49,967 nt of DNA from an uncultured Bacteroidales bacterium (GTDB lineage: Bacteria > Bacteroidota > Bacteroidia > Bacteroidales > FEN-979), in assembly GCA_903945175.1 (NCBI GenBank), contig CAJAUM010000053.1:1-49967 (forward strand), read 5' to 3'. Shown piece after piece: positions 2,746-49,967 of the stretch; position 1 is the first letter of the stretch, and the number at the start of each line of letters is the position of its first letter. Made by a program: the position numbers and the translations under genes. The notes under the pieces were generated by a model. That model saw only the letters and a program-made list of their open reading frames with translations, had not been told where the DNA came from and made no database searches.

Positions 2746-2759
2746 TCATTATCCAACTG

Positions 2760-2805
2760 AACAGGGTCTCGCGGGGTGAGGCATCTCACCCGCGCGCGTC
2801 CTGTT
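2760..2805. repeat. Intergenic nested inverted repeat
   Basis: Between the two T9SS genes, AACAGG (2760-2765) pairs with CCTGTT (2800-2805), and inside it 2771-2780 pairs with 2785-2793 around a GCAT loop with one bulged G. No T-run follows, so this is not a standard intrinsic terminator. It may be an mRNA stabiliser or a dispersed palindromic element. Confidence 0.5.
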
Positions 2806-2854
2806 TGCAGGAGAAGGTGGAGTAAATAAAATATAATTTCAATTACGTAACATT

Positions 2855-7497: not shown

Positions 7498-7498
7498 C

Positions 7499-7550
7499 GT
7501 AAAGAAGCAGGCCAACCCAACTGTAGCCACGGCGACAACAACTTCTTTAC
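7499..7550. repeat. Inverted repeat at the right edge of the restriction-modification island
   Basis: GTAAAGAAG (7499-7507) and CTTCTTTAC (7542-7550) form perfect 9-base arms around a 34-base, GC-richer loop. The first arm starts two bases after the methylase stop; the second contains the SDR stop codon (7547-7549). It may be a junction scar or a shared transcription end for the convergent genes. No T-run supports a normal terminator. Confidence 0.6.
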
Positions 7551-8308
7551 AATACCTTGTGAAAATTTACCGCACTGGCCTGGGCCGTGGGCATCAGCAC
7601 CAGGTCGTTCACATTCACATGGTCGGGAAGGGTGGTTACATAATACACCACATCGGCCACATCCTCGGCCGAGAGGGGTTTAAAGCCGTTGTAAACCGCG
7701 TCGGCCCGGGTTTTATCCCCTTTGAACCGTACAGTCGAAAATTCCGTGTCGGCCGCCCCCGGCGCAATCTGGGTCACCTTGATGTGGTGCGAAACCAGGT
7801 CGATGCGGGCCCCTTTGGTGATGGCATCCACCGCAAACTTGGAGCCGCAATAGACATTCCCCATCGGGTAAACCTCTTTTCCTGCAAGAGATCCGATGTT
7901 GATGATGTGGCCTCGCTTGCGGGCAACCATCAATGGCGAAACCATCCTGATCATGTACAGCAAACCCTTTACATTGGTATCGATCATCCGCTCCCAGTCG
8001 TCAATCACCCCCTCGTGAATGGGGTTCAGCCCCACTGCCAGGCCGGCATTGTTGACCAAAACGTCGATGGATCTCCATTTATCCTTCAGGGAGGTGATGG
8101 CATTTTCGACCTCGCTCAGCTTTCTCACATCAAAGCACAAGGGCAATACATCCACCTGATGGGTCAGAATCAAATCTTTGGCAAGTTCATCCAGGAGTAT
8201 CTTTCGTCTTCCGGTGATAATTAAATTATGGCCGTTTTCAGCAAATTTTCGTGCAATGGCCCTCCCGAATCCGGCGGTAGCGCCTGTGATGAGGATAGTT
8301 TTTTTCAT
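7547..8308 (-). CDS. SDR-family NADP-dependent oxidoreductase (YdfG-like)
   Basis: A 253-residue short-chain dehydrogenase. It has the nucleotide-binding TGATAGFG (8-15), the NNAG structural motif (86-89) and the catalytic S140, Y153 and K157 (YCGSK). The arginine-rich ITGRRK after strand beta-2 favours NADP(H). The overall pattern, including the C-terminal LPDHVNVNDLVLMP block, is close to YdfG-type 3-hydroxy-acid dehydrogenase / malonic semialdehyde reductase, so reduction or oxidation of small hydroxy acids is likely but not proven. Its ATG overlaps the purL stop by four bases (8305-8308), making it the last gene of the trxB-purL-SDR operon. The C-terminus is intact although the restriction-modification island lies right behind it. 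Confidence 0.88.
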   Translation of the reverse strand: MKKTILITGATAGFGRAIARKFAENGHNLIITGRRKILLDELAKDLILTHQVDVLPLCFDVRKLSEVENAITSLKDKWRSIDVLVNNAGLAVGLNPIHEGVIDDWERMIDTNVKGLLYMIRMVSPLMVARKRGHIINIGSLAGKEVYPMGNVYCGSKFAVDAITKGARIDLVSHHIKVTQIAPGAADTEFSTVRFKGDKTRADAVYNGFKPLSAEDVADVVYYVTTLPDHVNVNDLVLMPTAQASAVNFHKVL

Positions 8309-16587: not shown

Positions 16588-18228
16588 TTAATTTTTGATC
16601 AGTTTAATGGTCTGTAAGGTTTCCCGGTTTTGCAGTCTGAGGGAATAAACGCCCCTGTCGGCATGCGAAAGATCAATGAGATATTCATTTTGCTGACCAA
16701 AATGCTTCTCGAAAATGAGCCTACCGGTAAGATCAAAAACCTGCACGTTCAGGTTTGTAAGGACTGCGTTTTGAGGCAGGATGTTAAAAATCCCTTTCGA
16801 CGGATTCGGAAAAACCTTCACCATTTCATTTTGAGGATCCTGCGTATGAATACCAGTGAAAACAGACAAAGCATCAAAAGCATTTATTCTTCCAAATCCG
16901 TAATACTGGTCCCATCCGGGAGTATCTTCGATTGGGTCTCCTACCTGGTCTTCAGCAGTCGATTCAATGATGGATTTTATCTGTGCAGGTGTCCTGTTTT
17001 TATCCTGTGCCAATAATAAAGAAGCAAGCCCCGAAACAACAGGAGTTGCCTGTGAAGTTCCACCCCAATAACTTTCGTACTTTGTGTCAGATTGATAATC
17101 CAGTCCATAAATATAATTTCCCGGAGCTACTACAGAAATATGTGATCCGTAATTACTTCCACTTGTAGGACTCCAGAAAAACGGATTGGACCTGTAGTCA
17201 TTTGGATTTGTAGAACCTACGGCAATAACACCGGCATACTTTGCAGGATAGTAAATTGTATCTGAGTTTGTGTTCATCATACAGGCTGCAATTACTACAT
17301 TATTATCTAACGCATAATTAACAGCATCCTGAAGCGTTGTGGAAACCCCTTTGCCACCCAGAGACATATTTATCACGTTTGCCCCATTATCTACAGCGTA
17401 ATAAATGGCATCGGCCCACCATGCATAATACCCGAAATTTGAATTGTTAAGTCCTTTTAAAATCATCAGTTTGCATTTCCAGTCAACACCGGCATATAAA
17501 ATCGAGTTATTTCCATTTGCACCAATAATTCCAGTTACGTTGGTTCCGTGTCCCCTACCATCAGTCGGGTCATTATTGGCATTAGCAAAATTCCATCCCT
17601 GAACATCATCGACAAATCCATTGTTGTCGTCGTCAATCCCATTGTTCGGTATTTCCTCATAATTCTTCCATATCCTTCCTTCAAAATCCGGATGATCCAT
17701 CTTATTTCCGGTATCAATTATTCCAACTATGATGGTGCTGTCTCCCTGTTCAAGACTCCAGCCATTTTCCATATCAATATCCGCTCCGGCTATTGAAGGA
17801 GAATAGGGGAATGTCCCATCGTTTTTTAATCCCCATTGTAAATAATAATATTGGTCATTGGGGACAATCCCTTGTGTTCCTCCTCCTGAACCTACGAAGT
17901 CAGTTTCGGCATATACAGTTTCACCGGTCTTGTAATACTCATCGATGACTTGTTTCAGGTCTGTTCCTTGTGGAAATTGAATAACATAAATGTGTGCGTT
18001 GCTCTTTTTCCCGATGGATTGCCTGTTGATCTTTATCGCATTGAATTTTTGAGTCACATTGTCAATTCTAATATTTCCGATAAGATTTTGTTTAGACCGT
18101 GATTTGCCCGGATCGGCAATTTCATTTTTTATTTTTAAAATAATCCTGTCTGTTTGTTTGGAGTTTTGTCCAAAAGATGCAATACTACTGAACAGTATGA
18201 TTGCAAGCATGTAAATTTTTAGTCTCAT
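16588..18228 (-). CDS. T9SS-exported subtilisin-like serine protease (S8 family)
   Basis: A 546-residue secreted protease with signal peptide (1-21, SIASFGQ), an N-terminal inhibitor-like propeptide (about 25-110), and an S8 catalytic domain with D172 (IIDTGNKMDHPDF), H228 (GRGHGTNVTG) and S392 (GGTSQATPVVSG). A T9SS type A domain (about 465-546, VFPNPSKGIF ... GVYSLRLQN) ends the protein. The stretch NNGIDDDNNGFVDD (195-208) resembles a calcium-binding acidic loop. The oxyanion-hole region reads AACMMNTNSDT instead of the usual AAGN-type motif, so activity is likely but not certain. It is monocistronic, with no TAnnTTTG box found upstream. Confidence 0.93.
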   Translation of the reverse strand: MRLKIYMLAIILFSSIASFGQNSKQTDRIILKIKNEIADPGKSRSKQNLIGNIRIDNVTQKFNAIKINRQSIGKKSNAHIYVIQFPQGTDLKQVIDEYYKTGETVYAETDFVGSGGGTQGIVPNDQYYYLQWGLKNDGTFPYSPSIAGADIDMENGWSLEQGDSTIIVGIIDTGNKMDHPDFEGRIWKNYEEIPNNGIDDDNNGFVDDVQGWNFANANNDPTDGRGHGTNVTGIIGANGNNSILYAGVDWKCKLMILKGLNNSNFGYYAWWADAIYYAVDNGANVINMSLGGKGVSTTLQDAVNYALDNNVVIAACMMNTNSDTIYYPAKYAGVIAVGSTNPNDYRSNPFFWSPTSGSNYGSHISVVAPGNYIYGLDYQSDTKYESYWGGTSQATPVVSGLASLLLAQDKNRTPAQIKSIIESTAEDQVGDPIEDTPGWDQYYGFGRINAFDALSVFTGIHTQDPQNEMVKVFPNPSKGIFNILPQNAVLTNLNVQVFDLTGRLIFEKHFGQQNEYLIDLSHADRGVYSLRLQNRETLQTIKLIKN

Positions 18229-18494
18229 TTGCTGATAATTTGAATGGATACTTTAATATTTCTTTGCTTATATGTTTTATACTCAAGGAAAACAGGTTTG
18301 TGGTGTCACCCTGCTCCCAGGCCCATAAATATACCGAATTATTCTGATAATTAATCGATTAATTTTATATATTTTTCATTTTAAATATCATTAAACCATT
18401 GGCAACCAACAACTTTTCAGTGTATTCAACTCCGAAATAAGAGAAAGGTGCACTATGGTTTAAAAGAGAGAAAAAGAGGATATTTGCGAGCATA

Positions 18495-18526
18495 GTGGAC
18501 AAAACGGATCATCTGACCACCTTGTG
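18495..18526 (+). repeat. Direct repeat, left copy
   Basis: Begins GTGGAC, contains ACGGATCATCTGACCAC, and matches 20812-20843 at 27 of 32 positions. The two copies flank the YCF48-repeat gene. The reverse complement (GTGGTCAG-type core) recalls the terminal repeats of IS21-like elements, but no transposase is present. Confidence 0.6.
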
Positions 18527-18670
18527 CTGATCTAAACCCACCATACTAAATGTCTGATAATAAAACATCTAAGCTGGTCCATTGCGACCGGTCTGGGATG
18601 GTTTACTCCACTGGCTTCTCCAGCAAATCCGATATATTTAATTTTTCCAAACTTTGTTTCAAATTTGAGG

Positions 18671-18678
18671 TACATTTG
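18671..18678 (+). promoter_or_regulatory. Predicted -7 box of the YCF48-repeat gene
   Basis: TACATTTG, 26 bases before the ATG at 18705. A TTG at 18654-18656 is closer than the usual spacing. Confidence 0.5.
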
Positions 18679-18704
18679 AATTTCATATAGACAACCCGCA
18701 AAAA

Positions 18705-20783
18705 ATGAAATTTTTAATCACGTGGTGCCTCCTGCTCCTGCTCCCTTTGAGTTTATCGGCCCAGTGGACCTGGAAAAATCCTAAAATTCAGGGAAATCCT
18801 TTGTATTCTGTCGATTTTGTCGATGCCAATACAGGATTTACCGTCGGGGATTTCGGGACGATCCTGAAGACAACCAACGGAGGTCAAACCTGGGCATTTT
18901 GCAACAGCGGAACACAGTCCAACCTGTTATCGGTCTCCTTTCCTTCAGCATCGGTGGGGTTCGCCACCGGATATGACGGGACCATCCTGAAAACATCCGA
19001 TGCCGGGGTCACCTGGAATGCACAGACAAGCGGAACCATCTTTGAATTGCGATCGGTCTTCTTCGTCAGCGAAACCACCGGTTATAGCTGCGGCCAGCAT
19101 GGCCTAATCCTGAAAACCACCGACGGGGGAGCAACCTGGATCAAGTCGAAATGGAGCGGGGCCGCCGACCTCGAATCCATATTTTTCCTGAACGACCTAG
19201 TAGGATACGCATGCGGCCAGCATGGAACGATCATCAAGACCATCAACGGCGGACTGGGCTGGACCATCCAGAAGGAGTACATCGCCGATGAGCTGCGTTC
19301 CATCTGGTTTACCGATTCACTGAATGGGTGTGCGGTGGGAATGAAGAGCTGGGACAGCTACCTGGTAAGGACGACGGATGGGGGCGCCACCTGGACGGAG
19401 ATTACGATGCCAATGGAGGATGGATTGTTATTCGTGACCTTTACGAGCCCCACCACGGGTTTTGCCTCAAGTTCGGGAGGCGGCATTCTTAAGACAACCG
19501 ATGGTGGAATTACGTGGAATTCCAGGCCGGCGGGTTCACACCTCTTATCACTCACCTTTCCGGATGCGAATACAGGCTACGGGGTGGGTCTTGGGGGAAA
19601 CATATTGAAAACGGTCGATGGCGGAGAGCGCTGGACCCCGCTCACATCGGGCACCAACACCAACTTCAGCAAGATAACCTTCGTGAACGATCTCAAAGGA
19701 TTCGCCACGGGGTATTATTGTATCATGGCGTCAAACGATGGTGGCGAAACCTGGCAGGAATGTTACCGCAGCAGCACGTATGAACCGAATGACGTTGCTT
19801 TTCTTGATGAAAATACGGCCGTCGTGGCTGCCTCCTGGATGGATTGGCATAACTGGAAGGCAGCGTTCCTGAGGACCACCGACGGAGGATTGACCTGGAA
19901 TGTGACGCAATCGGGGGCGTATGGCTGGCCCAAAGCGCTGGCATTTCCCAATCAGATGACCGGATATTCGGTGGGATATTATGGCGATATTTTCAAAACC
20001 ACCGATGGAGGAATAACCTGGACCCAGATTTGGAATGAGTACTATTTTAGCTTGAACGGAGTATTCTTCACCAGTCCGACAAATGGGTTTGCCGTAGGAT
20101 ATTTCAGCCAGGACGGACGAGCGATCATTCATACCACCGATGGCGGTTCAACATGGACCATTCATCCTTACCAGGCTGAAGCCGCCTTGAGAAGTGTTTG
20201 CTTTACCGATTCACTGAACGGGTTCATCGTGGGTGAAAACGGGCAGATCCTGCGGACCACGGATGGCGGGACTTCATGGACCAAAATACCCCTGATGGTC
20301 GAGGATCTGTTTTCGGTCCATTTTCCCGATAGCCAAACCGGCTACATTGCCGGGGAGGAGGGTATCATTTTGAAAACCTGGGATGGGGGAAATTCATGGT
20401 ACTTAACGAAAATCACTACACAACCGCTGAATTCAGTCTTTTTCATCAATCCAAGTGTAGGTTTTGCCGCAGGGGGGAGCGGTGCGATCCTGAAGACCAC
20501 GAACGGCGGCGGATTAAATATTGAAGAGCCGGCACGAAAGAATAGCGGAATTATCCTCTCCCCAAACCCTGCGCATGACCGGATATCGATCCGGCTGACT
20601 TCCTTTGATCCGGGAGAAATCCAGGTTGATCTGTACGACATCACGGGCCGGCATGTTCAGTCAAATTCTTTCCGCCCCCAGCAACCATTGGATATCGATG
20701 TCAGCGGATTAACCGCCGGCCTCTACCTGGTTAAGGTCAAAACTTCAAACCGGATTGTAGTAGGTAAAGCTATCATACGGTAA
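18705..20783 (+). CDS. T9SS-exported YCF48-like beta-propeller repeat protein
   Basis: A 692-residue exported protein with a signal peptide (1-19, SLSAQ) and about fourteen repeats of roughly 40-45 residues of the form G.ILKTTDGG.TW...SGT..L.SV.F...TGYA.G (residues about 20-605). This is the YCF48/HCF136-like or BNR-type propeller pattern. A T9SS type A domain closes the protein (about 615-692, LSPNPAHDRI ... GLYLVKV). No catalytic motif is visible, and it is probably a surface binding or structural protein. The repeats resemble those in the C10 protease at 13098-15983. Similar 32-base sequences flank the gene (18495 and 20812), so it may have moved or been duplicated as a unit. Confidence 0.88.
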   Translation: MKFLITWCLLLLLPLSLSAQWTWKNPKIQGNPLYSVDFVDANTGFTVGDFGTILKTTNGGQTWAFCNSGTQSNLLSVSFPSASVGFATGYDGTILKTSDAGVTWNAQTSGTIFELRSVFFVSETTGYSCGQHGLILKTTDGGATWIKSKWSGAADLESIFFLNDLVGYACGQHGTIIKTINGGLGWTIQKEYIADELRSIWFTDSLNGCAVGMKSWDSYLVRTTDGGATWTEITMPMEDGLLFVTFTSPTTGFASSSGGGILKTTDGGITWNSRPAGSHLLSLTFPDANTGYGVGLGGNILKTVDGGERWTPLTSGTNTNFSKITFVNDLKGFATGYYCIMASNDGGETWQECYRSSTYEPNDVAFLDENTAVVAASWMDWHNWKAAFLRTTDGGLTWNVTQSGAYGWPKALAFPNQMTGYSVGYYGDIFKTTDGGITWTQIWNEYYFSLNGVFFTSPTNGFAVGYFSQDGRAIIHTTDGGSTWTIHPYQAEAALRSVCFTDSLNGFIVGENGQILRTTDGGTSWTKIPLMVEDLFSVHFPDSQTGYIAGEEGIILKTWDGGNSWYLTKITTQPLNSVFFINPSVGFAAGGSGAILKTTNGGGLNIEEPARKNSGIILSPNPAHDRISIRLTSFDPGEIQVDLYDITGRHVQSNSFRPQQPLDIDVSGLTAGLYLVKVKTSNRIVVGKAIIR

Positions 20784-23000: not shown

Positions 23001-23111
23001 GGTATTTGAGGTTTGGGTGATTATTTCCGATTAACAACAGGATAAAGGTACAACATTGTTTCTGAGAACAAAATAGTTTTTTGATGATGCATGTTTTATG
23101 CGTCATGGATG

Positions 23112-23119
23112 TATCTTTG
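23112..23119 (+). promoter_or_regulatory. Predicted -7 box of the propeller gene
   Basis: TATCTTTG lies 72 bases before the chosen ATG at 23192 and within the longest possible reading frame (from 23081), which argues for the later start. Confidence 0.5.
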
Positions 23120-23191
23120 TGTAGCGTGATTCAGGACGACCCTTATGGCGGATCGACCAGGTTAATCGATTACTTTTTAAATCACAGGAAT

Positions 23192-25483
23192 ATGAAAACA
23201 AAATTATTGCTGCTGGTTTTGGTTATGGTCATGATCTCTTGTTTAAAGAGTTCATCACAAACTTCAAGTTACTACCTGGTTAACCAGGTCGATATAAAAA
23301 ATGCGCTGGTAAGCGAACACAAAAATGTGTTGAAAATTTTTGATGTGGCTGTTGATGAAGTGCGCGGAAAAGCTTACGCCTCGGGTTTCCAGACAGAATT
23401 TGCCTCCATTATTGACCTGGAAACAAAAGAGGAAACAGGTTCAGTTGAACTTCCGTTTGCCGGGCTTAAAAATGAATTGGAATGCAATCCCTCCAATGGT
23501 TTTTTGCTGGCTACCACACCCGAAACCTCCCCTGTGATCACCTATCTTATCAATCCTTTAAACAGCCAGGTAGCGGGCACATACGCTTATCTGAACAGTT
23601 GCAACGGAATTTGTTTCGACGAAATCAACAACCATGTTTTTCTGGCTGATAACAACCGGATAAAAATATGCAACGGAAATGATTTGAGCGCCATCGATTC
23701 ATTCCCGACAGGGTATGTGATGGGTGATATCGGTTTCGACAAAACGAATCATGTTATTTACACGGTTTCGCGCAACATGGTGGGTCCCAACATGGTCATC
23801 AAAGCCTTCTCTTCCACAGCCCCCTATTCTTTGCTGAATACGATCTCTGTTCCGTCGGCCAATATTTTGGGGGAATTGCTTCTGGATATAGTGAATGACC
23901 GGTTGTTCCTGTTTGGGGTAAATGATATTAAAACCATCCGGATTTCGACAAAAACGATCGTATCGGCAGTGAGCACAAGCATGGAAACCACCGAAAAGGT
24001 ATATTCCTCTTATTTACAGACGCTGTTCATGACCAATGAAGATGGATATTCGGGCCAGGGAGAACATGGCAGCTGGAGCAAAATATACAAGCACATCCCT
24101 GGAACTTCGGCCCTGGATTCTGTAAAAATGGGAGATAAAACAGCGAGACTGGCCATGGACAATACCCGGCACATCCTTATCGTTCCTGATATGCACAGCG
24201 GTTATGTGGAGTTATTGGATCTTCAGACCAATGAAATCGACTCGGTGGATATCGGAGAATCGGCGGATGATTTCGCATGCGCTCCCGACGGTCAGCGGTT
24301 GTATATCGCCAAGCGTTTGGGCGGCAGCCGGGTGATCACCTATGATAAAAACACACATGGGTTAACTCAAATGAAGGCGGGTGTATGGCCCTGTGTCGTG
24401 TCGGTCGATTCCCTGCTTGGAAGATTGTTCGTATTGAATGAATTTGAGAGTTCCGTGTCGGTGTTCAATTGCAACACCAACGAAAAAACAGCCACCATCA
24501 TGCTGTCGATCCCTGAGGGACGCAAAGATGCCATTCCAACCATGTACCTGGATCAATCGAGCCATCGTATTTTCATCAGTTTCCCTGAATTTGGATGCAT
24601 TATAAAAGTGAACGCGCAAACGCTGACGGAAGAGGATGTCATTTCAATTCCCGGATTTCATTTCAATGAGGAGTACCATTATGGCATCGGAATTATTCAA
24701 CTGATCACCTTCCCGCCGCTAAACAAGCTCCTGGCGCTTCAAAAAACCGAAAAGAAGCTGAAGGTTTTCGATCTAAATTCACTTGCATTGATCGATTCCG
24801 CCGACCTCTCTGCCGTATGGCCCAATGGCTCGGTATTCGAAAGCAATTTGATGGCCTATAATGCAGCTTCAGGAAATTTGTTCTTTGGAAATAAAATCCT
24901 TAACCCCGTAAACTATCATGTCGTTGCATCGCTTCCTGCTGCAGAACACCTCCTGGGATACCTGGATGGCGAAAACAAAATATTCGGGATTTCATCCATC
25001 GGGGGCGAAGTCAAAGTGAACGAATACAACGGTTCCACATTTGCGCTTACCTCATCCCGTATGCTCTTTCAGCAATCGGGGATTGCCATGCCGGTATTTT
25101 ATTACGACAGCCATACCCATGATCTGTTTATTGCCGAATTCAACTATGCCCTCCTCCGCCATTATGACCTCGATTCAACCGTGGTCACTTCGGTATTTGA
25201 CGGAAACAACGCAATGGGGTATCATCTTGAGCAGAACGTTCCAAATCCCTTTTCCTGTTCCACCACGATCAGTTTTTCGATACCCAGATCAGGCAAGGTA
25301 AATCTGGCCCTATATGACATGAACGGGAATCCTGTCAAAACCCTGGTCAATGAATTTTTAACGGCCGGATGCCATGAGCGGGAATTTATTGCACAGCCGG
25401 ATTACAGCGGGATCTATTTTATGGTTTTGCAGACCCCCGAAACAAGAATCGTAAAGAAAATGATGATACAAGCTGAACGATGA
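23192..25483 (+). CDS. T9SS-exported YVTN/NHL-like beta-propeller protein
   Basis: A 763-residue protein. The ATG at 23192 is chosen because it opens a clear signal sequence (MKTKLLLLVLVMVMISC), is preceded by CAGGAA and lies downstream of a promoter box; the frame extends back to 23081 without such support. The body (about 40-680) is made of weak repeats of the kind seen in surface-layer YVTN propellers (LDLQTNEIDSVDIGE, ...PDGQRLYIAKR). The C-terminus is a T9SS type A domain of the QNVPNPFSCSTTISF type (about 685-763). The early cysteine in MISC might be lipidated, which would be unusual for a T9SS cargo. No enzyme motif is visible. Confidence 0.82.
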   Translation: MKTKLLLLVLVMVMISCLKSSSQTSSYYLVNQVDIKNALVSEHKNVLKIFDVAVDEVRGKAYASGFQTEFASIIDLETKEETGSVELPFAGLKNELECNPSNGFLLATTPETSPVITYLINPLNSQVAGTYAYLNSCNGICFDEINNHVFLADNNRIKICNGNDLSAIDSFPTGYVMGDIGFDKTNHVIYTVSRNMVGPNMVIKAFSSTAPYSLLNTISVPSANILGELLLDIVNDRLFLFGVNDIKTIRISTKTIVSAVSTSMETTEKVYSSYLQTLFMTNEDGYSGQGEHGSWSKIYKHIPGTSALDSVKMGDKTARLAMDNTRHILIVPDMHSGYVELLDLQTNEIDSVDIGESADDFACAPDGQRLYIAKRLGGSRVITYDKNTHGLTQMKAGVWPCVVSVDSLLGRLFVLNEFESSVSVFNCNTNEKTATIMLSIPEGRKDAIPTMYLDQSSHRIFISFPEFGCIIKVNAQTLTEEDVISIPGFHFNEEYHYGIGIIQLITFPPLNKLLALQKTEKKLKVFDLNSLALIDSADLSAVWPNGSVFESNLMAYNAASGNLFFGNKILNPVNYHVVASLPAAEHLLGYLDGENKIFGISSIGGEVKVNEYNGSTFALTSSRMLFQQSGIAMPVFYYDSHTHDLFIAEFNYALLRHYDLDSTVVTSVFDGNNAMGYHLEQNVPNPFSCSTTISFSIPRSGKVNLALYDMNGNPVKTLVNEFLTAGCHEREFIAQPDYSGIYFMVLQTPETRIVKKMMIQAER

Positions 25484-39420: not shown

Positions 39421-40767
39421 TTACCTCTCCTCCAGCGGCGTATACTTCCGCTCAGGTTCCACCGTTTTATAGGCCGGGCGGATGATGCGGCGGCCGCTGA
39501 TCATCTCTTCAAGCCGGTGGGCACACCATCCGCTGATGCGTGAAATGGCAAACAGCGGTGTGTAGAGTTCTTTTGGGATCTTCAGGCATTCATAAACGAA
39601 GCCGGAGTAAAAGTCGACATTCGGGGAGATCAGCTTATCCTGGGTGCCTTTGAATTCATAAAAGATCTCTGGTCCGATGCGTTCGATGGATTCATAGAGG
39701 GCCATTTCATCTTCCCTGCCCTTTTCAATGGAGAGAAGGCGGGCTTTTTCCTTCAGCAGGATGGCCCTTGGATCAGAGACCGTATATACGGCGTGGCCGA
39801 ATCCGTAGATCAGACCGGTTTTGTCGTGGGCCTCTTTGCGGGTGATCTTGCGGAGGTATTCTGCCACCTCATCATCGTTTGCCCAATTCTTCACATTGGC
39901 CTTGATATTATCCATCATCTCCATCACCTGCAGGTTGGCACCGCCATGCAACGGGCCCTTCAGTGAACCGATGGCCGCAACAATGGCCGAATAGGTATCG
40001 GTGCCGCTCGAGCTGACAACGCGCGTGGTGAATGTAGAATTATTTCCGCCGCTGTGCTCGGCATGAAGCACCAGTGAAAGGTCAAGCAATTCGGCCTCCA
40101 GCGCCGTGTAATCATTCCCCTTGAGCATATACAGGAAGTTTGCAGCGGTACTTAGTTTCTTATCAGGATACCGAACGGTAAGCGTGTCATAATAGATAAG
40201 GTGACGCATGGAATGGTACGAATAGACTGCGATGGTCGGCAGTTTGGCGATGAGGCTGATCGACTGCCTAAGAATGTTCTCTATCGTGGTATCATCGGCC
40301 TTTTCATCAAGCGTATACAATGCAAGGATTGACCGTGCCAGCATATTCATGATATCCTTCCCCTTCATGGTCAGGATCATGTCGCGGTTGAAATTTTCGG
40401 GAAGAACCCGCAATTCAGCAAGTCCTGCGGAAAACATGTCGAGCTCCGCCTTCACGGGAAGACGTCCGAAGAGCAAAAGAAAAACCGTTTCGTCAAAACC
40501 GGGTCGCTGGGCAGCCTGCGATCCATATACCAGGTCCCTGATGTCGATTCCGCGGTAAATCAGTTTGCCGTCAATGGCCTCCAGCTTCCCGTCAACTTTT
40601 TCGTACCCAACCACGCTACCCACACGGGTAAGACCAACAAGCACGCCTGTATGGTCGGCATTGCGCAGCCCGCGTTTAACATCAAACTGCTTGAATAAAC
40701 TCTCTTCTATTTTACAGGAATCCTCTGTGAGTTTAGCCAGGTCCTGAAGGAATTCAGCGATTATCAT
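39421..40767 (-). CDS. gltA: Citrate synthase
   Basis: A 448-residue enzyme condensing oxaloacetate and acetyl-CoA to citrate, the entry to the TCA cycle. It shows LHAEHSGGNNSTF (H235/H238), GPLHGGAN (H274), GFGHAVY (H325) and the catalytic aspartate in SPNVDFYSG (D385). The N-terminal extension (about 1-55) before GYEKVDGKLEAIDGKLIYRGIDI matches the longer citrate synthases of Bacteroidota. It lies six bases behind the aconitase gene, so the two are co-transcribed. Use of propionyl-CoA (2-methylcitrate) cannot be excluded from sequence, but the aconitase and icd neighbours favour citrate. Confidence 0.95.
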   Translation of the reverse strand: MIIAEFLQDLAKLTEDSCKIEESLFKQFDVKRGLRNADHTGVLVGLTRVGSVVGYEKVDGKLEAIDGKLIYRGIDIRDLVYGSQAAQRPGFDETVFLLLFGRLPVKAELDMFSAGLAELRVLPENFNRDMILTMKGKDIMNMLARSILALYTLDEKADDTTIENILRQSISLIAKLPTIAVYSYHSMRHLIYYDTLTVRYPDKKLSTAANFLYMLKGNDYTALEAELLDLSLVLHAEHSGGNNSTFTTRVVSSSGTDTYSAIVAAIGSLKGPLHGGANLQVMEMMDNIKANVKNWANDDEVAEYLRKITRKEAHDKTGLIYGFGHAVYTVSDPRAILLKEKARLLSIEKGREDEMALYESIERIGPEIFYEFKGTQDKLISPNVDFYSGFVYECLKIPKELYTPLFAISRISGWCAHRLEEMISGRRIIRPAYKTVEPERKYTPLEER

Positions 40768-40773
40768 ACGTTT

Positions 40774-43035
40774 CTATTTTAAGGTTTGCATATAATTTAG
40801 GGCGCTTCCTGCCTTGAACCAATGGATCTGCAGGTCGCTGTAACTGTGGTTGATTTCAATCTTTTCCTTCATGCCATCCGCATGGATGAGCGTCAGGTGC
40901 AATGGTCTTCCCGGAATCAGTGTTTCAAGTCCGGTCAATTCAAACAGGTCATCCTCTCTGATCCTGTTATAATCACCAGGATCGGCAAAGGTAAGTGCAA
41001 GCATCCCCTGTTTCTTCAGATTGGTTTCATGGATGCGGGCAAAGGATTTCACCAATACAACACGAACTCCCAGATGGCGTGGTTCCATCGCAGCATGTTC
41101 GCGGGAGGAGCCTTCACCGTAATTTTCATCTCCCACGATGATGGTTGGGATGCCTTTGGCTTTATAATACCGGGCCGTCTTTGACACTTCGCCATATTCA
41201 CCCGTTTCCGGATTTTTCACAGCATTGGTCTTTTCATTAAAAAAGTTAACGGCCCCCATCAGCAGGTTGTTCGAAATGTTATCGAGATGTCCGCGGTATT
41301 TAAGCCAAGGCCCGGCCATGGAGATGTGGTCGGTGGTGCACTTGCCCTTGGCCTTGATCAGCAAACGCATCCCCTTGATATCTTTGCCATCCCAGGCAGC
41401 GAATGGTTCAAGGAGCTGAAGGCGGTCTGAAGCAGGATTTACGCTGACAACCACCGATGATGCATTGGCAGGCGGAGCAAGGAAACCCGGATCTTTGACT
41501 TCAAATCCATTGGGCGGAAGTTCCTCGCCATGGGGTTCGTCCAGCCTCACCATTTGTCCCGATTCATTGAGGAGCGTATCCTTCAGCGGATTGAAAACAA
41601 GGCTGCCCGCCAAGGTCAGAGCCGTAACGATTTCAGGAGAGGCAATGAAACTATGGGTTCCGGCATTGCCATCATTCCGTTTTGCAAAATTCCTGTTGAA
41701 GGAGTTCAAAATGGAATTCTTACGGTCGGGATTATCCATTTTCCTCGCCCACTGTCCGATGCAGGGACCACATGCATTGGCCATGATTACCCCGCCAATG
41801 TTGTTAAACACCTCGAGTAATCCATCCCGCTCACACGTATAGCGGATCTGCTCAGATCCGGGTGTGACGACAAATTCAGATTTCACCTTCAGATGCTTCT
41901 CCCCGGCCTGTTTTGCAACTGTAGCGGCGCGGGAGATGTCTTCATAAGATGAATTGGTACAGGAGCCAATCAAACCTACTTCAAGGATTTCAGGATAGTT
42001 GTTTTCTAAAACAAATGCCTTGAATTCCGAGATGGGATGCGCCACATCCGGGGAGAAAGGTCCGTTGATATATGGCTCGACTTCCGACAGGTTGATATGG
42101 ATGTACTGATCATAATATAATGAAGGATTTGCGCGCACCTCTCCATCGGGTGCCAGGAAGGGGGCATACTGGTCGGCCAGGGCGGCAACCTCTTTCCTTC
42201 CGGTTGCTTCAAGGTAGGATTTCATTTTCGCATCATAGGAAAAAACAGAACAGGTCGCCCCTATCTCTGCGCCCATGTTGCAAATGGTTCCTTTTCCGGT
42301 GCAGGAAAGCGACGCGGCCCCTTCGCCGAAATACTCAACAATATAGCCTGTGCCTCCTTTTACAGTGAGCATCCCCGCAATCTTCAGGATCACATCCTTG
42401 GCGGAGGCCCATCCCGACAATGTTCCGGTAAGTTCAATCCCCAGCACCTTCGGCATTTTCAATTCAAGCGGCATCCCCGACATGACATCCACCGCGTCGG
42501 CGCCTCCAACACCAATGGCTACCATCCCAAGTCCACCTGCATTGGGGGTGTGAGAATCGGTCCCAATCATCATTCCTCCGGGAAATGCATAATTTTCAAA
42601 AATCACCTGGTGTATAATTCCGGCGCCAGGCTTCCAGAAACCAATTCCATATTTTGCCGATACGGTTTCGAGAAAATCATACACCTCCCTGTTCTGAACA
42701 TTGGCCGAAGCCAGATCGGTTTTAACGCCAAGCTGAGCCAGTATCAGATGATCGCAATGTACTGTTGAAGGCACTGCTGCAGTTTCGCGGCCAGCTGTCA
42801 TAAATTGAAGCAAAGCCATCTGTGCCGTGGCATCCTGCATGGCCACCCTGTCGGGAAGGAAATTGACATAATCTTTCCCGCGATGGTAGGGATTCTGCGG
42901 ATTCTGATTGAAGAGATGGCCGTAAAGGATCTTTTCCGTCAATGTCAGCGGTTTACCCAGAATTGATCTCGCATAAGCAACCCCATTGGAAATTTTTTCG
43001 TACGTACCTTGTATTAATTTAGTATTCAATAACAT
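40774..43035 (-). CDS. acn: Aconitate hydratase
   Basis: A 753-residue aconitase interconverting citrate and isocitrate. The [4Fe-4S] ligands are C359 ([11 protein letters not shown]), C422 and C425 ([10 protein letters not shown]). The upstream HCDHLI (93-98), [11 protein letters not shown] (158-168) and the C-terminal swivel domain with [15 protein letters not shown] are present. Length and order fit the mitochondrial-type (ACO2-like) aconitases. First gene of acn-gltA, divergent from the AMP-ligase/GNAT fusion across a 117-base gap. A possible -7 box TAATTTTG lies at 43149-43142 on the minus strand, implying a leader of about 100 bases. Confidence 0.96.
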
Positions 43036-43152: not shown

Positions 43153-46100
43153 ATGTTGGCTTTAGAATTATATTGTGAAGAATGGAAAAACATTGCGAAT
43201 CCCGATATAAACAGCCATCAGCTGGCACTGAAGATTATTGAAGAAACCGAACAGATCTTTGCGGTAAAACAGGAACATACCCTCAAAAATTCTTTTTGGT
43301 TTGAATGGCTGAACCTTACGAAAAAACCGATTTTTTTACAATCATTAGGCACAAGCGCACACCGCATCCGCTGGTCTGAACTCGCCTTTCGCATCATCCG
43401 GTTTTCCAATTACAACCTGAAAGAGATGATGGAACAGCGCGTTGCTGAACATCCAAATCATATATTATTTAAAGACATGTCATCGGCTGCCGCAGTAGAC
43501 TGGACGTATGAACAGACCTATCGGCACCTGCGTGAGATTGCCAGCCTGTGTTACAAATCTGTTGCCACAGCGCCACGCGTTGCTTTTTATTGCGAAAACT
43601 CCTTCGAAGGAGCGTGTACCGACCTGGCCTGCCTGATGTTCGACATCTACGATACGCCGCTTAGTCCGCATTTCAAAATTGATGTGCTGTTGCCCATCTT
43701 CAACGAACTTAAAATCAATATCGCGCTGGCCGATACCGATGAGCGCCTGGCCGTGCTGAAGAAGATTCATGAGAAGGCAGAGATAAAGTTTCTCATCTTT
43801 TCGCTGCAGCCGGTCACACCCAAAATGCGGGATATTCCATACATGGTTGAAGAGGCGAAAAAAATATCGCGCTGGGATATGGATGTGATACTGAAACGGC
43901 AGCCAATAAAGATGAACAACCGCGTTGCTACGACCATGTTTACCTCGGGCAGCACGGGTTTACCAAAAGGGGTCTCATTCTCCATCTACAACATTGTTTC
44001 CAAACGATTCGCCCGCGCCGCAGCCTTGCCGGATGTAGGCAATGAAGTATTCCTTTGCTACCTCCCCCTGTTCCATACTTTTGGAAGATATCTGGAGATG
44101 ACCGGGGCCATTTTCTGGAATGGAACGTACATCTTTGCAGGCAACACCTCTGCAGAAACATTGATATCGCTCTTTCCGAAGACGAACCCGACCGGATTTA
44201 TCAGCATCCCGCTGCGGTGGCAGGAACTTTATGAACAGTGCCAGGAAAAAATCAGTCCCATCGAACGTATGGAACTCCGCGAGCAGGCTGTAAGGGAGGT
44301 GGTCGGATCACGGCTGCACTGGGGATTATCGGCCGCAGGCTATCTGGATCCTGCCGTATTCAAATTTTTCAACGAATATGGCATCTTTCTCAACAGTGGA
44401 TTCGGCATGACCGAAGCAACCGGCGGCATTACGATGACCCCTCCCGGGGATTATAAGGAATTCACGGTCGGGATCCCGCTTCCGGGGGTTAACACCCGGT
44501 TAACCGCTGATTCGGAACTGGAACTCAGCGGACATTACATTGGCCGGTACCTTGAAGTGGCCGGGCCCGATGACTTCATCCCCTACCCTGTCTCTGCAAA
44601 GCAGGATTACTGGCTGCCAACGGGCGATGTCTTCAAAATCGGCAACGATGGCTATTACCAGATCATCGACCGGGTAAAGGATATTTATAAGAATAACCGG
44701 GGACAGACTGTGGCACCACAGGTTATCGAAAAGAAATTCTATAAGGTTCCTGGAATTAAAAGTGTTTTCCTGGTTGGTGACAACCGCCCCTACAATGTGT
44801 TATTGATTGTGCCCGACCAGGCTGATCCGATTTACAATTCACTTCAGGGCGACAACCTCACCGAATATTTTCACCAGATTGTCATGGCCGCCAACAACGA
44901 CGTGGCAACATACGAACGGGTGATCAATTTCATGGTGCTTGATCGCGATTTCAGCCGTGAAAAAGGAGAGCTGACCCCAAAAGATTCATACAACAGGAAA
45001 ACGATTGAAACCAATTTCAAAGCGATCATTGAAAGCCTCTATCAAACTAATATTGTACGCCTGGATGCAGGTGAATTTACAATTCAAATCCCGAAATGGT
45101 TCTTCCGCGACCTGGGGATCCTCGAAACCGATATCCGCTACGAACACACCCGGTTGGTGAACCGGCGGAATGACTCAAAACTTGTTATCCGGAAACTGAA
45201 AGGCGACTGGTTCCTTATCGGACATCTGAAATATCACATAACCTCCAACCTGATTGATCTCGGGATGTTGTCACGTCAACCAAAAATCTGGATCGGAAAT
45301 CCTGAAATGATTGGCTTTTGCCCTGTTAAAGAGGGATGGGACCTTACCATGGGATCAGTTTCAGCAAGTATCTCCATCCCGGGATTCAGGAAATTGGATG
45401 AATCACATTTCCCGATCATCAAATCAGTTCGTGATCAACAGCTCATCCAGACAAATTATCTGCTTTTCCGGACCTATTTCGGTGGATTGGATGAGGCCTA
45501 CAAAGCTACGGATGAACTCGGGGTACTCCTGACCCATGCTGAGCCAAGGCTGGCGGATACCATCAGGTACAGGCTTGAAGCGCTGGCCAATCATCCCGAC
45601 GAAGAGATCCGTTGCCTGGCCTACAGGCTGATCCTGCTGAAGGCGCCAAAACCTGAGGATATTCAGTATATGCCGGCATTCATCGAATCGGGACTCCCCT
45701 TTCTCAACGAAAAATCAATACGGGAGATCGCTTCGAGTAATTTCGGAAAACACAGGCTTGATGCACTTAAACAGCGGCTTTACTGGTACCGCACGCATCT
45801 CAGCTGGCCTGCATCAAAAAAACAACGGTCTGCATTCATGGATGTGCTGGGAATGCTGTACAATTTTGCAGTGCTGCATCTTGAATATTATGTTCCGGTC
45901 AGAGCCGAATTGTCAAGATGGATTCTTCACAAACAAGATCCCGCGCTATCGAAAAAGGCTGAGCAATATTTCTATTCCCTGGCGGATGTGTTCGAAAAAA
46001 ATATTGAAAATCGGTCGACGACCCATGCCCTCACCGAATGGAAAGCAAAGCTTGTTTTCGAGCATGGGATCTCGGATACCGAAAAACAGCGGGTATTAAA

Positions 46101-47742
46101 AATTTTTCAATCCACCACCTTTCTGAAAGAGAGCATACTTCTGACATTCAACGAACAGCATTTCGACCTTGCAGAAGTTCCCGAAAAAGGGATCTGGATC
46201 CTGCGTTTGCTTGCATTTAAAGAATTCAAACATTACCGTTTATCGGTAAACACCCTATCAGGAAAACATTTTGACCTCCACATGGTGATGAGTGAGAATC
46301 CAGCGTTCAAGCCAAATCCCGACACATTCTACTGGCTGGCTTCATTGGCCGGATTTCCATATGGCCCGGCCGTAGCGCCTTTACTGGGAAGCAACAGACC
46401 CACCCTGGGTGTGCTCTCAACCCAATATATCGGAGGGTTGACCGCCTGGGATAAAATCAGGGAGCTGTCTGAAATTCATCGTTCATCCGGCAATGTTAAA
46501 GAGCATTCCTGGAAGAAGATTTTTGTCAAAGCCTTTACGGTTATTTACCGGGCCTGGCATCACAGTGGCAACCAGATCGTTCCCGGAGCCATCTCTCCTT
46601 CCAACGTGGCCATTCCTGAGATGGATTTTCGTGAGAGTGCAGTCATCCTCTCCCTTGCAGGCTGGTCGCCCTATAAAAACACCTTGTCGCTGGTTGGTCC
46701 CATGCTGCAGGATTACTATTGCAAAACGGCCTCCATCTATCCCTGGTGCCGCAATCAACTTGATGTTACATGGATTTTTGATGCCTGTATCGAAGCCCTT
46801 GGTATTGAGGAGGCAATCCTGTTTTTAAATCGACTTAAGCAAGATCTCAAGGCCAAATCATTGGTTTGCTTTGACTCCTCTGATCTTCGTCAGCACCTGA
46901 GCCATTACCTTGAAAAAACAGTCAAACGGTATTATAAACCGATTGCCCTTTTCAGCGCCATTGATCAGTACCTTGACTGGTATAAAATGAATCCGCTGAC
47001 CACGGCCGTGGCCAAGGAACAAACCCTCATCGAACTGCTTGAACTTTTCAAGTTGCAGCAATATCCTGAATTGGTGCGTTACTTTTTCTACCGGCATACC
47101 TGTTTTTCTGATGCATCGGAGGAGGTATTGTCAGCCTTTGACAAACTTTTGGCAAAGATGGAAGATTTGCCTGAGGGGCTGGCTATCCAGCTGGTCGAAT
47201 TGTCAGACCTGCAGTCAGAGCTCAATGATCCTGATGACAAAAACATCTTCAGCAGGATGGTTTTCCCCCGTCTGCATGGAGAACAGGGAATTGAATTTGT
47301 CAAAGTTGGAGATAGTAAAAAGGAGCACCTCATTGTTCGCTTTGCGCTACATGATAAATCGGGCAGGCGCTATATTCTTCGTGAACCTGTTGAAGCACGG
47401 GAGACAGGACAACTTTACCAGCTGTTCTTCCGCGAAAAATACCCCAAGGAGATTTCGGACAATGACCACCAGTATGTGCTGACAGATGAAAATGAAAAAG
47501 TCGTGGGAGGGATCACCTTCCGCCATTTGGAGGATCAAAACATTCTCCTGGATGGGATTGTTGTCACATCCGCCCTGCAAGGCCAAGGAATTGCTTCGGG
47601 TATGATTGAAAGATTCTTTGCAAGTATGGCCGCACAGGGTTTTAAAGTTGTCAAGGCCCATTTCCTCTTTGGCAACTATTACCTCAAACATTTTTTTGAA
47701 GTTGACAAGACCTGGGGGGCGCTGATAAAAACGCTCAAGTAG
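43153..47742 (+). CDS. AMP-forming acyl-CoA-ligase-like / GNAT acetyltransferase fusion protein
   Basis: A 1529-residue cytoplasmic protein. Residues about 85-630 are an adenylate-forming ligase: P-loop MFTSGSTGLPKG (262-273), GFGMTEATGG (416-425), PTGD (489-492) and DRVKDIYKNNRGQTVAPQVIE split by turns (506-526), closest in feel to long-chain acyl-CoA synthetases. The A10 region reads GELTPKDSYNRK (605-616), without a lysine where TPTxKxKR-type ligases have one. Residues about 640-1370 are mostly helical and unrecognised, with HEAT-like stretches (795-880). About 1380-1529 is a GNAT domain with the acetyl-CoA-binding VTSALQGQGIASGM (1471-1484). It sits between acn-gltA and icd. An acyl-activation plus protein-acylation role is inferred. 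Confidence 0.8.
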   Translation: MLALELYCEEWKNIANPDINSHQLALKIIEETEQIFAVKQEHTLKNSFWFEWLNLTKKPIFLQSLGTSAHRIRWSELAFRIIRFSNYNLKEMMEQRVAEHPNHILFKDMSSAAAVDWTYEQTYRHLREIASLCYKSVATAPRVAFYCENSFEGACTDLACLMFDIYDTPLSPHFKIDVLLPIFNELKINIALADTDERLAVLKKIHEKAEIKFLIFSLQPVTPKMRDIPYMVEEAKKISRWDMDVILKRQPIKMNNRVATTMFTSGSTGLPKGVSFSIYNIVSKRFARAAALPDVGNEVFLCYLPLFHTFGRYLEMTGAIFWNGTYIFAGNTSAETLISLFPKTNPTGFISIPLRWQELYEQCQEKISPIERMELREQAVREVVGSRLHWGLSAAGYLDPAVFKFFNEYGIFLNSGFGMTEATGGITMTPPGDYKEFTVGIPLPGVNTRLTADSELELSGHYIGRYLEVAGPDDFIPYPVSAKQDYWLPTGDVFKIGNDGYYQIIDRVKDIYKNNRGQTVAPQVIEKKFYKVPGIKSVFLVGDNRPYNVLLIVPDQADPIYNSLQGDNLTEYFHQIVMAANNDVATYERVINFMVLDRDFSREKGELTPKDSYNRKTIETNFKAIIESLYQTNIVRLDAGEFTIQIPKWFFRDLGILETDIRYEHTRLVNRRNDSKLVIRKLKGDWFLIGHLKYHITSNLIDLGMLSRQPKIWIGNPEMIGFCPVKEGWDLTMGSVSASISIPGFRKLDESHFPIIKSVRDQQLIQTNYLLFRTYFGGLDEAYKATDELGVLLTHAEPRLADTIRYRLEALANHPDEEIRCLAYRLILLKAPKPEDIQYMPAFIESGLPFLNEKSIREIASSNFGKHRLDALKQRLYWYRTHLSWPASKKQRSAFMDVLGMLYNFAVLHLEYYVPVRAELSRWILHKQDPALSKKAEQYFYSLADVFEKNIENRSTTHALTEWKAKLVFEHGISDTEKQRVLKIFQSTTFLKESILLTFNEQHFDLAEVPEKGIWILRLLAFKEFKHYRLSVNTLSGKHFDLHMVMSENPAFKPNPDTFYWLASLAGFPYGPAVAPLLGSNRPTLGVLSTQYIGGLTAWDKIRELSEIHRSSGNVKEHSWKKIFVKAFTVIYRAWHHSGNQIVPGAISPSNVAIPEMDFRESAVILSLAGWSPYKNTLSLVGPMLQDYYCKTASIYPWCRNQLDVTWIFDACIEALGIEEAILFLNRLKQDLKAKSLVCFDSSDLRQHLSHYLEKTVKRYYKPIALFSAIDQYLDWYKMNPLTTAVAKEQTLIELLELFKLQQYPELVRYFFYRHTCFSDASEEVLSAFDKLLAKMEDLPEGLAIQLVELSDLQSELNDPDDKNIFSRMVFPRLHGEQGIEFVKVGDSKKEHLIVRFALHDKSGRRYILREPVEARETGQLYQLFFREKYPKEISDNDHQYVLTDENEKVVGGITFRHLEDQNILLDGIVVTSALQGQGIASGMIERFFASMAAQGFKVVKAHFLFGNYYLKHFFEVDKTWGALIKTLK

Positions 47743-47794: not shown

Positions 47795-49060
47795 ATGAAC
47801 GGAGAAAAAATCACCCTGATAAATGGGAAGTTGAATGTTCCCGATTTTCCAATTGTACCATTTATTGAAGGCGACGGAACGGGGCCGGATATTTGGAATG
47901 CCAGTGTTCGCGTATTGGATGCCGCTGTTGAAAAGGCTTATGGCGGTAAAAGAAAAATAATGTGGAAAGAGGTGCTGGCGGGTGAAAAGGCATTTAAAGA
48001 AACCGGTGAATGGTTGCCTGCTGCAACCCTGGATATGATTCGTGAATACCTGGTGGCCATAAAAGGACCGCTTACGACACCGGTTGGTGGAGGAATCCGG
48101 TCACTCAATGTGGCCTTGCGGCAAATCCTTGATCTGTATACCTGCCTGCGACCTGTAAAATACTTTCAGGGAGTTCCCTCTCCGGTGAAGCATCCCGAAA
48201 CAACCGACATGGTGATCTTCCGTGAAAATACCGAAGACATCTATGCAGGGATTGAATGGATGCAGGGCACTGCGGGTGTTGAAAAGGTAATAAAATTCCT
48301 CATCGAAGAGATGGGTGTGAAGAACATCCGTTTTCCTGAATCCTCCTCCATCGGGATAAAACCTGTATCCAAGGAGGGCACTGAAAGACTTGTCAGGGCT
48401 GCGATCCTTTATACACTGGAGCATAAACGCCCCTCCCTGACTTTGGTTCACAAGGGCAACATCATGAAATTTACTGAAGGACAATTCAAGCAGTGGGGAT
48501 ATGAATTGGCTGAACGGGAATTCGGCGACAAGGTATTTACCTGGCTGACCTATGATAAAATCAAAGCAAAGGATGGCGAAGCTGCAGCAGATGCTGCGCA
48601 GACAGAGGCCATTTCGAAGGGAAAAATTATCGTCAAGGATGCCATTGCAGATGCTTTCCTGCAGCAAATTCTAACCCGGCCAGCCGATTATTCTGTAATT
48701 GCCACCCTAAACCTCAATGGCGATTATATTTCCGATGCACTGGCCGCGATTGTCGGTGGTATCGGTATTGCCCCCGGGGCGAATATCAATTATGTTACAG
48801 GTCATGCTATTTTTGAAGCTACCCATGGCACAGCACCTAAATATGCCGGCAAAGACCAGGTAAATCCGGGGTCGGTCATTCTCTCGGGTATGATGATGCT
48901 GGAGTATATGGGCTGGATGGAAGCCGCCCGTCTGATCATGAAAGGACTTGAAGGGGCCATCATGAAAAAAAGGGTCACCTATGATTTTGAACGCCTGATG
49001 GAAGGGGCAACAAAACTTAAATGTTCAGAATTCGGGACAGAGATCATCGCAAACATGTAA
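47795..49060 (+). CDS. icd: NADP-dependent isocitrate dehydrogenase
   Basis: A 421-residue enzyme oxidising isocitrate to 2-oxoglutarate and CO2. It is highly similar to the Escherichia coli enzyme along its length: [19 protein letters not shown] is kept in pieces (91-109), including S103, equivalent to the regulatory phosphorylated Ser113. NADP choice is shown by HGTAPKYAG...VNPG and TYDFERLM, which keep the residues contacting the 2'-phosphate. An 8- to 10-residue insertion follows [18 protein letters not shown] compared with E. coli. Closes the acn-gltA-fusion-icd block supplying 2-oxoglutarate and NADPH. No aceK is in the window. Confidence 0.97.
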
Positions 49061-49095: not shown

Positions 49096-49967
49096 CTAAT
49101 AGAAGGTCGGGCATTCCATTGATCTGCCACCGCCTCTGCCGCCTGAGCTGGGAACGAATCCATCCCCTCCGCCGCCGCCAAAGATCTGAAGTTTATCAAA
49201 TTCAAGGATCAGGCTGATCTCATGTGCGCCACCGGTTCCGTTGAGCGCTCCTGAAACCTGCAGGTCATAACTGTACATGAATTTGATGCTCATATCTTCA
49301 TAAAAGGTGTATTTGTATCCGGCTACCAGGGCCACTGCAGAATTTACAACACCGGTCATGGTCGTTTTATACCATGCTCCCAGGTAGATGTTATATTTTA
49401 GTAAATTCAGTCCTACCTGTAAAGAATTCAACTTGGCCTGATTCTGATAAATGGCTCCAATATTGATCTTCAATGGATCATTTCCTGAACGGGACATCGA
49501 TGACGATGAGGACCCTCCTGGTCCGGTAGTAAAGATCAAATCGAATTGTCCTACCCATTTACGCGGATAGAGGGAAGCTCCTGTTGAAAGAAAACTCACA
49601 TCAGGCTGGAAGATATGATCAACAGCAAATCCGATGTTTCCGCTTATGTTGCCATCGGGATTGATAAACTGCAAAACACCGCCGGCGCCAAAATCGGGAA
49701 CCGTCCGTTTATTTCCGTCAGAAGGGATAAAAGAGGACTGATATATATTTCCATACCTGGGATCAAGCTGATCGGCAAAAACAAGATCAGCCCAATTGAC
49801 CCTCCGCTGCATGATTCCGGCCTTGATTCCAAGCTGGCTGATCATGAAACTGGTGATTGGAATACGAACCCCAATGGTCAGGGCGGCGCCGAAATTATTG
49901 ATCACGCCCAAATCGGGGGTATCCTGATTGATCATGATCCCAATCCCTCCTGAACCAGGCAGGTTCC
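49096..49967 (-). CDS. PorP/SprF-family T9SS membrane protein (5' end outside window)
   Basis: About 290 residues are visible; the frame stays open to the last base of the window, so the start lies beyond it. The sequence GSGGIGIMINQDTPDLGVINNFG, split by short loops, repeated amphipathic strands (LQVGLNLLKYNIYLGAWYK, VALVAGYKYTFYEDMSIKFMYSYD) and the terminal ECPTFY are typical of PorP/SprF proteins, outer-membrane barrels that work with the type IX secretion machinery or anchor its cargo. A glycine-rich tail (GGGGGDGF ... GGRGGGRS) precedes the terminus. It fits the many T9SS cargo proteins in the window, although no cargo gene is adjacent within view. Confidence 0.88.
   Translation of the reverse strand, partial: NLPGSGGIGIMINQDTPDLGVINNFGAALTIGVRIPITSFMISQLGIKAGIMQRRVNWADLVFADQLDPRYGNIYQSSFIPSDGNKRTVPDFGAGGVLQFINPDGNISGNIGFAVDHIFQPDVSFLSTGASLYPRKWVGQFDLIFTTGPGGSSSSSMSRSGNDPLKINIGAIYQNQAKLNSLQVGLNLLKYNIYLGAWYKTTMTGVVNSAVALVAGYKYTFYEDMSIKFMYSYDLQVSGALNGTGGAHEISLILEFDKLQIFGGGGGDGFVPSSGGRGGGRSMECPTFY

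Follow-up and report, generated by a model that had tools for sequence, protein, structure and literature searches.

A conserved protein family joining an AMP-forming ligase to a GNAT domain, linked in part of its range to citrate and homocitrate synthase genes

Results

Layout of the FAM gene

The window (the whole stretch of DNA analysed, 49,967 nucleotides of contig CAJAUM010000053.1, assembly GCA_903945175.1, from an uncultured Bacteroidales bacterium) encodes on its forward strand a protein of 1529 residues that joins an adenosine monophosphate (AMP)-forming ligase module, a long middle part and a C-terminal GNAT domain. We refer to this protein by the working name FAM. The gene and its parts are as follows.

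43153..47742, + strand: whole FAM gene; ATG start, 1529 aa, no internal stop; ligase, middle and GNAT parts
43432..44523, + strand: adenylate-forming ligase core, AMP-binding PF00501; residues 94-457, Pfam E 3.3e-43; TSGSTGLPKG loop and GMTE
44698..45048, + strand: ligase C-terminal domain, AMP-binding_C_3 PF23562; residues 516-632, E 2.1e-12; K610 in GELTPK
45016..45375, + strand: beta-rich segment; residues about 622-741, AlphaFold2 model
45436..46146, + strand: helical segment; residues about 762-998, AlphaFold2 model
46192..47289, + strand: kinase-like segment (weak support); residues about 1014-1379, strands and helices in kinase-like order in the model
47290..47733, + strand: GNAT domain; residues about 1380-1527, P-loop Q1476-A1481, acidic residue at 1467

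FAM is one intact, conserved and widely spread family in which the ligase and GNAT signatures are kept. Full-length, stop-free copies were found in 16 of the 19 genomes of the genus, the window's own included, so that the gene is neither a chance reading frame nor a product of misassembly. In genome G016 it was split over two contigs, and it was not found in G003 and G009. A chance reading frame, a frameshift or a chimeric contig was rejected as the origin of the fusion and has a negligible probability, since the uninterrupted architecture recurs in dozens of genomes from at least three named phyla (Bacteroidota, Krumholzibacteriota and Myxococcota). A first, sequence-only reading of this DNA had proposed a single 1529-residue polypeptide with ligase and GNAT domains; the open reading frame, the Pfam matches and the orthologues bear this out.

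Ligase module and GNAT domain

Residue conservation was tallied over 74 aligned FAM rows; gaps and X were not counted, so that the denominators vary. The ANL motifs of AMP-forming ligases are present (P-loop TSGSTGxPKG, GMTE, TGD and DRxKD). The P-loop residues T264, S265, G266, G269, K272 and G273 were each conserved in 64/64 rows and T268 in 61/64, and T420 and E421 were each kept in 69/69. Similar values were obtained for T490 (71/72), G491 and D492 (72/72), D506 (71/72) and K509 (72/72), and K610 was invariant (72/72). The closest solved relative of the module was 6oz1 (listed as Oxidoreductase); luciferases, malonyl-CoA ligases and the carboxylic acid reductase 5mso were also among the best. 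Its top NCBIfam matches were long-chain acyl-coenzyme A (acyl-CoA) ligases and carboxylic acid reductase, all of them below cut-off.

At the other end of the protein, Pfam placed Acetyltransf_1 (PF00583) at residues 1427-1515 with an E-value of 3.4e-8 and 34.2 bits against a cut-off of 20.7. An AlphaFold2 model of residues 622-1529, made with ten sequences, reached a mean pLDDT of 85.1 and a pTM of 0.64. When it was compared with the PDB by Foldseek, all 8 matches at E<=1e-3 were GNATs, with E. coli YhbS first; the PI3-kinase Vps34 stood at rank 16 of the same list. Pfam, model and Foldseek together show a GNAT fold with the acetyl-CoA P-loop [RQ]xxGx[GAS], and the proposed C-terminal GNAT domain with its acetyl-CoA loop has thus survived a direct test of whether the fold is there. 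The P-loop pattern was found in 57/68 FAM rows when R, Q or K was allowed in first place, and the 11 rows that missed it had H first in nine and S or T in two; G1479 was kept in 66/70. Residue 1467, which we take to be the equivalent of the catalytic acid of other GNATs, was acidic throughout (D in 59/70, E in 11/70).

Middle part

Pfam gave no match above cut-off for residues 640-1420, the sole match being ComX at a sub-cut-off E-value of 0.13. The sequence-only reading had called this part unrecognised and helical. In the AlphaFold2 model the description holds for residues about 762-998 but not for the beta-rich residues about 622-741, nor for the part from about residue 1014 on, where strands and helices follow a kinase-like order. 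A second model, of residues 1000-1379, had a mean pLDDT of 76.5, with model residues 47-95 under 50. The best 50 of its 436 Foldseek matches were all kinase entries, led by LegK4 (E 2.8e-3); none of these 50 reached E<=1e-3, and their TM by query was 0.30 or less. The modelled segment at about 1014-1379 is thus weakly kinase-like. N1151 and D1158 within it were each kept in 69/72 aligned rows. At the place that we take to correspond to the HRD/HGD motif of kinases no catalytic Asp was seen, and the loop read, by eye, PG.[IV][ST]P.N in most rows of clade 1 (defined below). Because the aligned loop has no catalytic Asp, kinase activity of the segment is unlikely.

Distribution and phylogeny

In a sample of the window's order, 31 of 393 genomes matched the non-ligase part of FAM; one of these (G690) matched weakly and at the GNAT end only, leaving 30. 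The class sample gave 2 matches in 295 genomes, one of them in the window's own genome and the other a weak match to the GNAT end. In the phylum sample there were 21 in 395. Apart from the window's own genome, three came from family f106 (group C, identity 35-41%) and 17 from families f90 and f108 (group B, identity 20-25%). A scan of named genomes with two generic ligase patterns, which says nothing on absence from other phyla, yielded at least nine relatives. The nine listed belong to Bacteroidales (two), Chlorobiota, Krumholzibacteriota, Gemmatimonadetes, Aminicenantes, Anaeromyxobacter terrae and two unclassified bacteria; the Gemmatimonadetes copy ends at a contig end and the Aminicenantes copy is incomplete in view. 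In the phylum to which Anaeromyxobacter belongs, 26 of 193 sampled genomes matched, one of them weakly.

A tree of 49 FAM members contained two deep clades (the midpoint root is for drawing only, and many rows are unlike in residue make-up). Clade 1 holds the window's order, f106, Krumholzibacteriota and locus L073, and clade 2 holds Myxococcota, locus L079 and f90/f108. The ligase and GNAT modules stay joined, with their motifs kept, across both. The sequence-only reading had named wide occurrence of an already characterised family as its counter-case; the family does occur widely, but no characterised family of this kind was found in the literature searched.

A phage or defence origin was considered and rejected, since one of two scans of IMG/VR gave no FAM relative, the 8 loci from the other matched no more than the ligase part, and PADLOC gave no defence match for FAM. 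Among 72,556 plasmid records 1160 matched, and none covered 80% of the FAM query in one place.

Gene context in the window's genus and family

The FAM gene of the window is flanked by genes for citric acid cycle enzymes.

39421..40767, - strand: citrate synthase, NCBIfam PRK14032 type; 653.5 bits, cut-off 426
40774..43035, - strand: aconitase TIGR01340; divergent from FAM, 117 bp between
47795..49060, + strand: NADP isocitrate dehydrogenase (icd); same strand, directly downstream of FAM

The loci of the genus were viewed with about 1.5 kb of flank. The icd gene was found downstream of FAM in 14 of the 16 full-length loci, the misses being L011, whose contig ends 948 bp downstream of FAM, and L013. 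A divergent aconitase gene was present in 13 of the 16 (misses L006, L008 and L011). Aconitase and icd flank FAM in all six loci of the window's family: that of the window, the loci L171-L174 from four further genomes of the family, and L072, placed among them by the tree. The citrate synthase gene follows aconitase in four of these six (the window, L172, L173 and L174); the L072 contig ends in aconitase, and in L171 citrate synthase was not found beyond aconitase. G003 and G009, the genus members that lack FAM, carry only distant aconitase relatives (27-33% identity) and no close aconitase.

The PRK14032-type citrate synthase was not found in G002, G003, G012 and G013, where the only citrate synthase found is distant, with 30-33% identity across the part that matched. 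This is an apparent replacement within the genus, or the result of incomplete assemblies.

Gene context in clade 2

For group B, 15 loci were fetched from the 17 genomes, and for Myxococcota 23 loci from 25 genomes. A citrate synthase gene was in view in 11/15 group-B loci, and in 8/15 it immediately precedes FAM in the same orientation; none was in view in L199, L202 and L205, and L194 starts at FAM. The one group-B copy tested, from L196, belongs to the PRK09569 subfamily (725.9 bits, cut-off 344), and the group-B enzyme is 25-30% identical to the PRK14032-type enzyme of the window. In L079 the FAM and citrate synthase genes are adjacent and convergent.

In all 23 Myxococcota loci a homocitrate-synthase-like gene lies directly downstream of FAM on the same strand. 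Its product is 75-97% identical to the Anaeromyxobacter copy, with the L225 alignment covering 228 residues only, and the Anaeromyxobacter copy, the only one scored, passes the TIGR02146 homocitrate synthase cut-off (455.3 versus 413.55 bits). In 3/23 a citrate synthase gene immediately precedes FAM in the same orientation. The 23 loci are not independent, because their FAM copies are 63-96% identical to the Anaeromyxobacter one. That the homocitrate-synthase-like enzyme is the only (Re-)citrate synthase of its hosts was rejected, because a PF00285 citrate synthase was present in every one of the 28 genomes tested.

Locus L196 (631-15461) and similar group-B loci also hold two squalene/phytoene synthase genes and HpnE upstream of citrate synthase and FAM, and one of the two L196 synthase genes passes the HpnD cut-off. 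Downstream in the same loci are genes for CTP synthase, a TPR protein, a formyl transferase and AICARFT/IMPCHase.

Other features of the window

At 5051-7497 (+ strand) lies a stretch of low guanine-plus-cytosine content (2-kb windows of 0.40 and 0.375 against flanks of about 0.51) in which a type II restriction enzyme gene (PDLC03454, 3.8e-73) overlaps a type II methyltransferase gene (PDLC03310, 5.5e-132). An open reading frame at 7490-8221 (+ strand, 244 aa) had no PADLOC match, and an 800-aa frame at 23081-25480 (+ strand) had no Pfam (E<=1e-5) or PADLOC match. A 961-aa protein with Peptidase_C10 and Spi protease inhibitor domains is encoded at 13101-15983 (- strand). Four proteins with Por_Secre_tail domains (type IX secretion sorting) are encoded at 58-4639, 16591-20780 and 49099-49965, and the window also encodes a PorP/SprF-family protein above its cut-off.

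Discussion

Over part of its range, and in each of the two clades, the FAM gene is linked to genes for citrate or homocitrate synthases of different kinds. Since the window's family is nested inside clade 1, whose other fetched members lack this context, its linkage is most simply regarded as separate from that of clade 2. Gene context, which the sequence-only reading had not used, is the best clue to the role of FAM, and a conserved ligase-GNAT family often found beside genes for acetyl-CoA entry suggests that central metabolism has an enzyme or switch so far undescribed. We tentatively propose that FAM is an AMP-forming counterpart of the lysine acetyltransferases Pat/PatZ, acylating the enzymes through which acetyl-CoA enters the citric acid cycle; the acyl transfer, the protein target and the regulation of acetyl-CoA entry are what we infer here. 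The N-terminal ligase would bind a carboxylic acid and ATP and would make or sense an acyl-CoA, as its motifs, save a shifted A10 lysine, would allow. The GNAT domain, to judge from its fold, loop and conserved acidic residue, would take the acyl-CoA and move the acyl group to an amine. With the gene context as a guide, the helical and kinase-like middle may hold or choose the substrate, of which citrate or homocitrate synthase or isocitrate dehydrogenase would be the likeliest, and flux would be tuned to acyl-CoA supply. A rather less probable formulation is that FAM represents a new class of acyltransferase, in which AMP-forming ligase, degenerate kinase-like domain and GNAT charge and transfer, or sense, an acyl group and so set the activity of the host's citrate or homocitrate synthase.

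Several observations weigh against the proposed role. Citrate synthase, aconitase, icd and homocitrate synthase of the types described were not found in the 16 order loci outside the window's family (fetched from 25 such FAM genomes, some ending at contig ends), nor were any in view in the three group-C loci, L076, L073-L075, L077 and L078. No partner recurred in these surroundings: among 91 of the 128 neighbour proteins of 27 such loci (the largest and some others left out), the commonest Pfam family, response regulators, accounted for 4, among the 25 of 76 families listed. G002, G012 and G013 carry FAM together with only the distant citrate synthase, so citrate synthase itself is not constant with FAM. 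Position 612, the canonical place of the A10 lysine, is S in 54/72 and T in 18/72 aligned rows. Central-metabolism genes also cluster for other reasons.

In favour of the proposed role, G003 and G009 are without a close aconitase as well as without FAM, and in the order sample a PF00285 citrate synthase was present in 28 of the 30 FAM genomes (exceptions G983 and G1043) versus 185 of 363 others, G690 being counted as lacking FAM (Fisher p 1.9e-6, uncorrected for kinship). The co-occurrence with citrate synthase may be confounded by lifestyle, and none of the context and co-occurrence counts is corrected for shared ancestry. Sirtuin co-occurrence was discarded as a clue, because a SIR2 deacetylase was found in 20 of 21 relatives irrespective of FAM.

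Near FAM, the loci fetched from most of the order's families show no citric acid cycle genes of the types sought, which would also fit a two-step biosynthetic enzyme. The acyl-CoA made by its ligase would be used by the GNAT to N-acylate a small metabolite, for example an amino acid or a polyamine, and the gene context would reflect general clustering of central-metabolism genes. The conserved ligase motifs agree with such an enzyme, and many GNATs act on small amines. It is only a little less probable than the proposed role; against it, no biosynthetic partner rises above the 4/91 just given, 1529 residues with helical and kinase-like parts exceed what it would need, and FAM is linked to three different types of (homo)citrate synthase. 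Acylation of lipid or envelope, with a fatty acid activated by the ligase, transferred by the GNAT and unrelated to the citric acid cycle, appears improbable. It would accord with the sub-cut-off long-chain acyl-CoA ligase matches and with the squalene/phytoene synthase genes, which lie in the same cluster in 9/15 group-B loci; however, those genes are confined to group B among the loci compared, and no lipid gene is prominent among the neighbours identified.

A further alternative, which we consider unlikely, is that the ligase serves as a sensor only, binding acyl-CoA or acyl-AMP without turnover and gating a lysine acetyltransferase. The Ser or Thr at position 612, with the invariant Lys two residues earlier, points this way, as does the precedent of Pat, whose nucleoside diphosphate (NDP)-forming domain is described as inactive in the parts of the review consulted (PMC8556138). 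The remaining tallied ligase motif residues, however, show little or no variation. Ordinary ligases have the A10 order GELTPSGK, as in L082 and L089, but the TPKGS order of FAM recurs in the ligases of two other Bacteroidales loci, L107 and L111. For this reason the swap alone need not mean inactivity, and the A10 change was dropped as proof of it. The sequence-only reading, which had suggested possible self-contained protein acylation, stands as regards its domain identities; self-containment is less certain, as the ligase may also be a sensor of the kind described for Pat-type enzymes.

If FAM acts as an AMP-forming counterpart of Pat/PatZ, bacteria of several phyla would control acetyl-CoA entry through an acyltransferase with its own acid-activating module, and an AMP-forming class would be added to the scheme of bacterial lysine acetyltransferases. 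FAM would also be a candidate acylation system for Bacteroidota and Myxococcota, and the enzymatic origin of non-acetyl lysine acylations could be tested on one protein.

Comparison with known systems

FAM shares PF00501 and AMP-binding_C_3 with AMP-forming acyl-CoA ligases and the adenylation domains of carboxylic acid reductases, but it is fused to the middle part and GNAT, has its A10 lysine shifted by two and is without the reductase part. Full-text literature searches, which covered few subscription journals, returned no report of such a ligase/GNAT fusion. In the portions consulted, two reviews of bacterial GNAT lysine acetyltransferases (PMC6456759, PMC8556138) name only NDP-forming synthetase fusions, so that the contrast first drawn with Pat/YfiQ is a fair one. 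The proposed role resembles that of M. tuberculosis Rv2170, which acts on isocitrate dehydrogenase, and of AcuA, which acts on acetyl-CoA synthetase, in that GNAT acetylation controls an enzyme of central metabolism. This likeness is one of described function, and both are single-domain (type IV) GNATs, unlike FAM.

With Pat/PatZ/YfiQ, the class I-alpha lysine acetyltransferases, FAM has in common a large size, an N-terminal acyl-CoA-synthetase-like part and a C-terminal GNAT domain, and E. coli PatZ (9it0) was a Foldseek match of the FAM model at rank 15 (E 1.4e-3). The synthetase part of Pat is NDP-forming and, according to the sections of PMC8556138 consulted, catalytically inactive, binding and sensing acetyl-CoA, whereas that of FAM is an AMP-forming ligase with its motifs kept. 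Some 750 residues, including the kinase-like part, separate ligase and GNAT in FAM, unlike in Pat. The NDP-forming synthetase family was looked for among the Pfam matches of FAM and was not found, so FAM is no member of the Pat/PatZ class. Even so, of the systems compared, it is Pat/PatZ that FAM would most resemble in the way it works, from outside that class.

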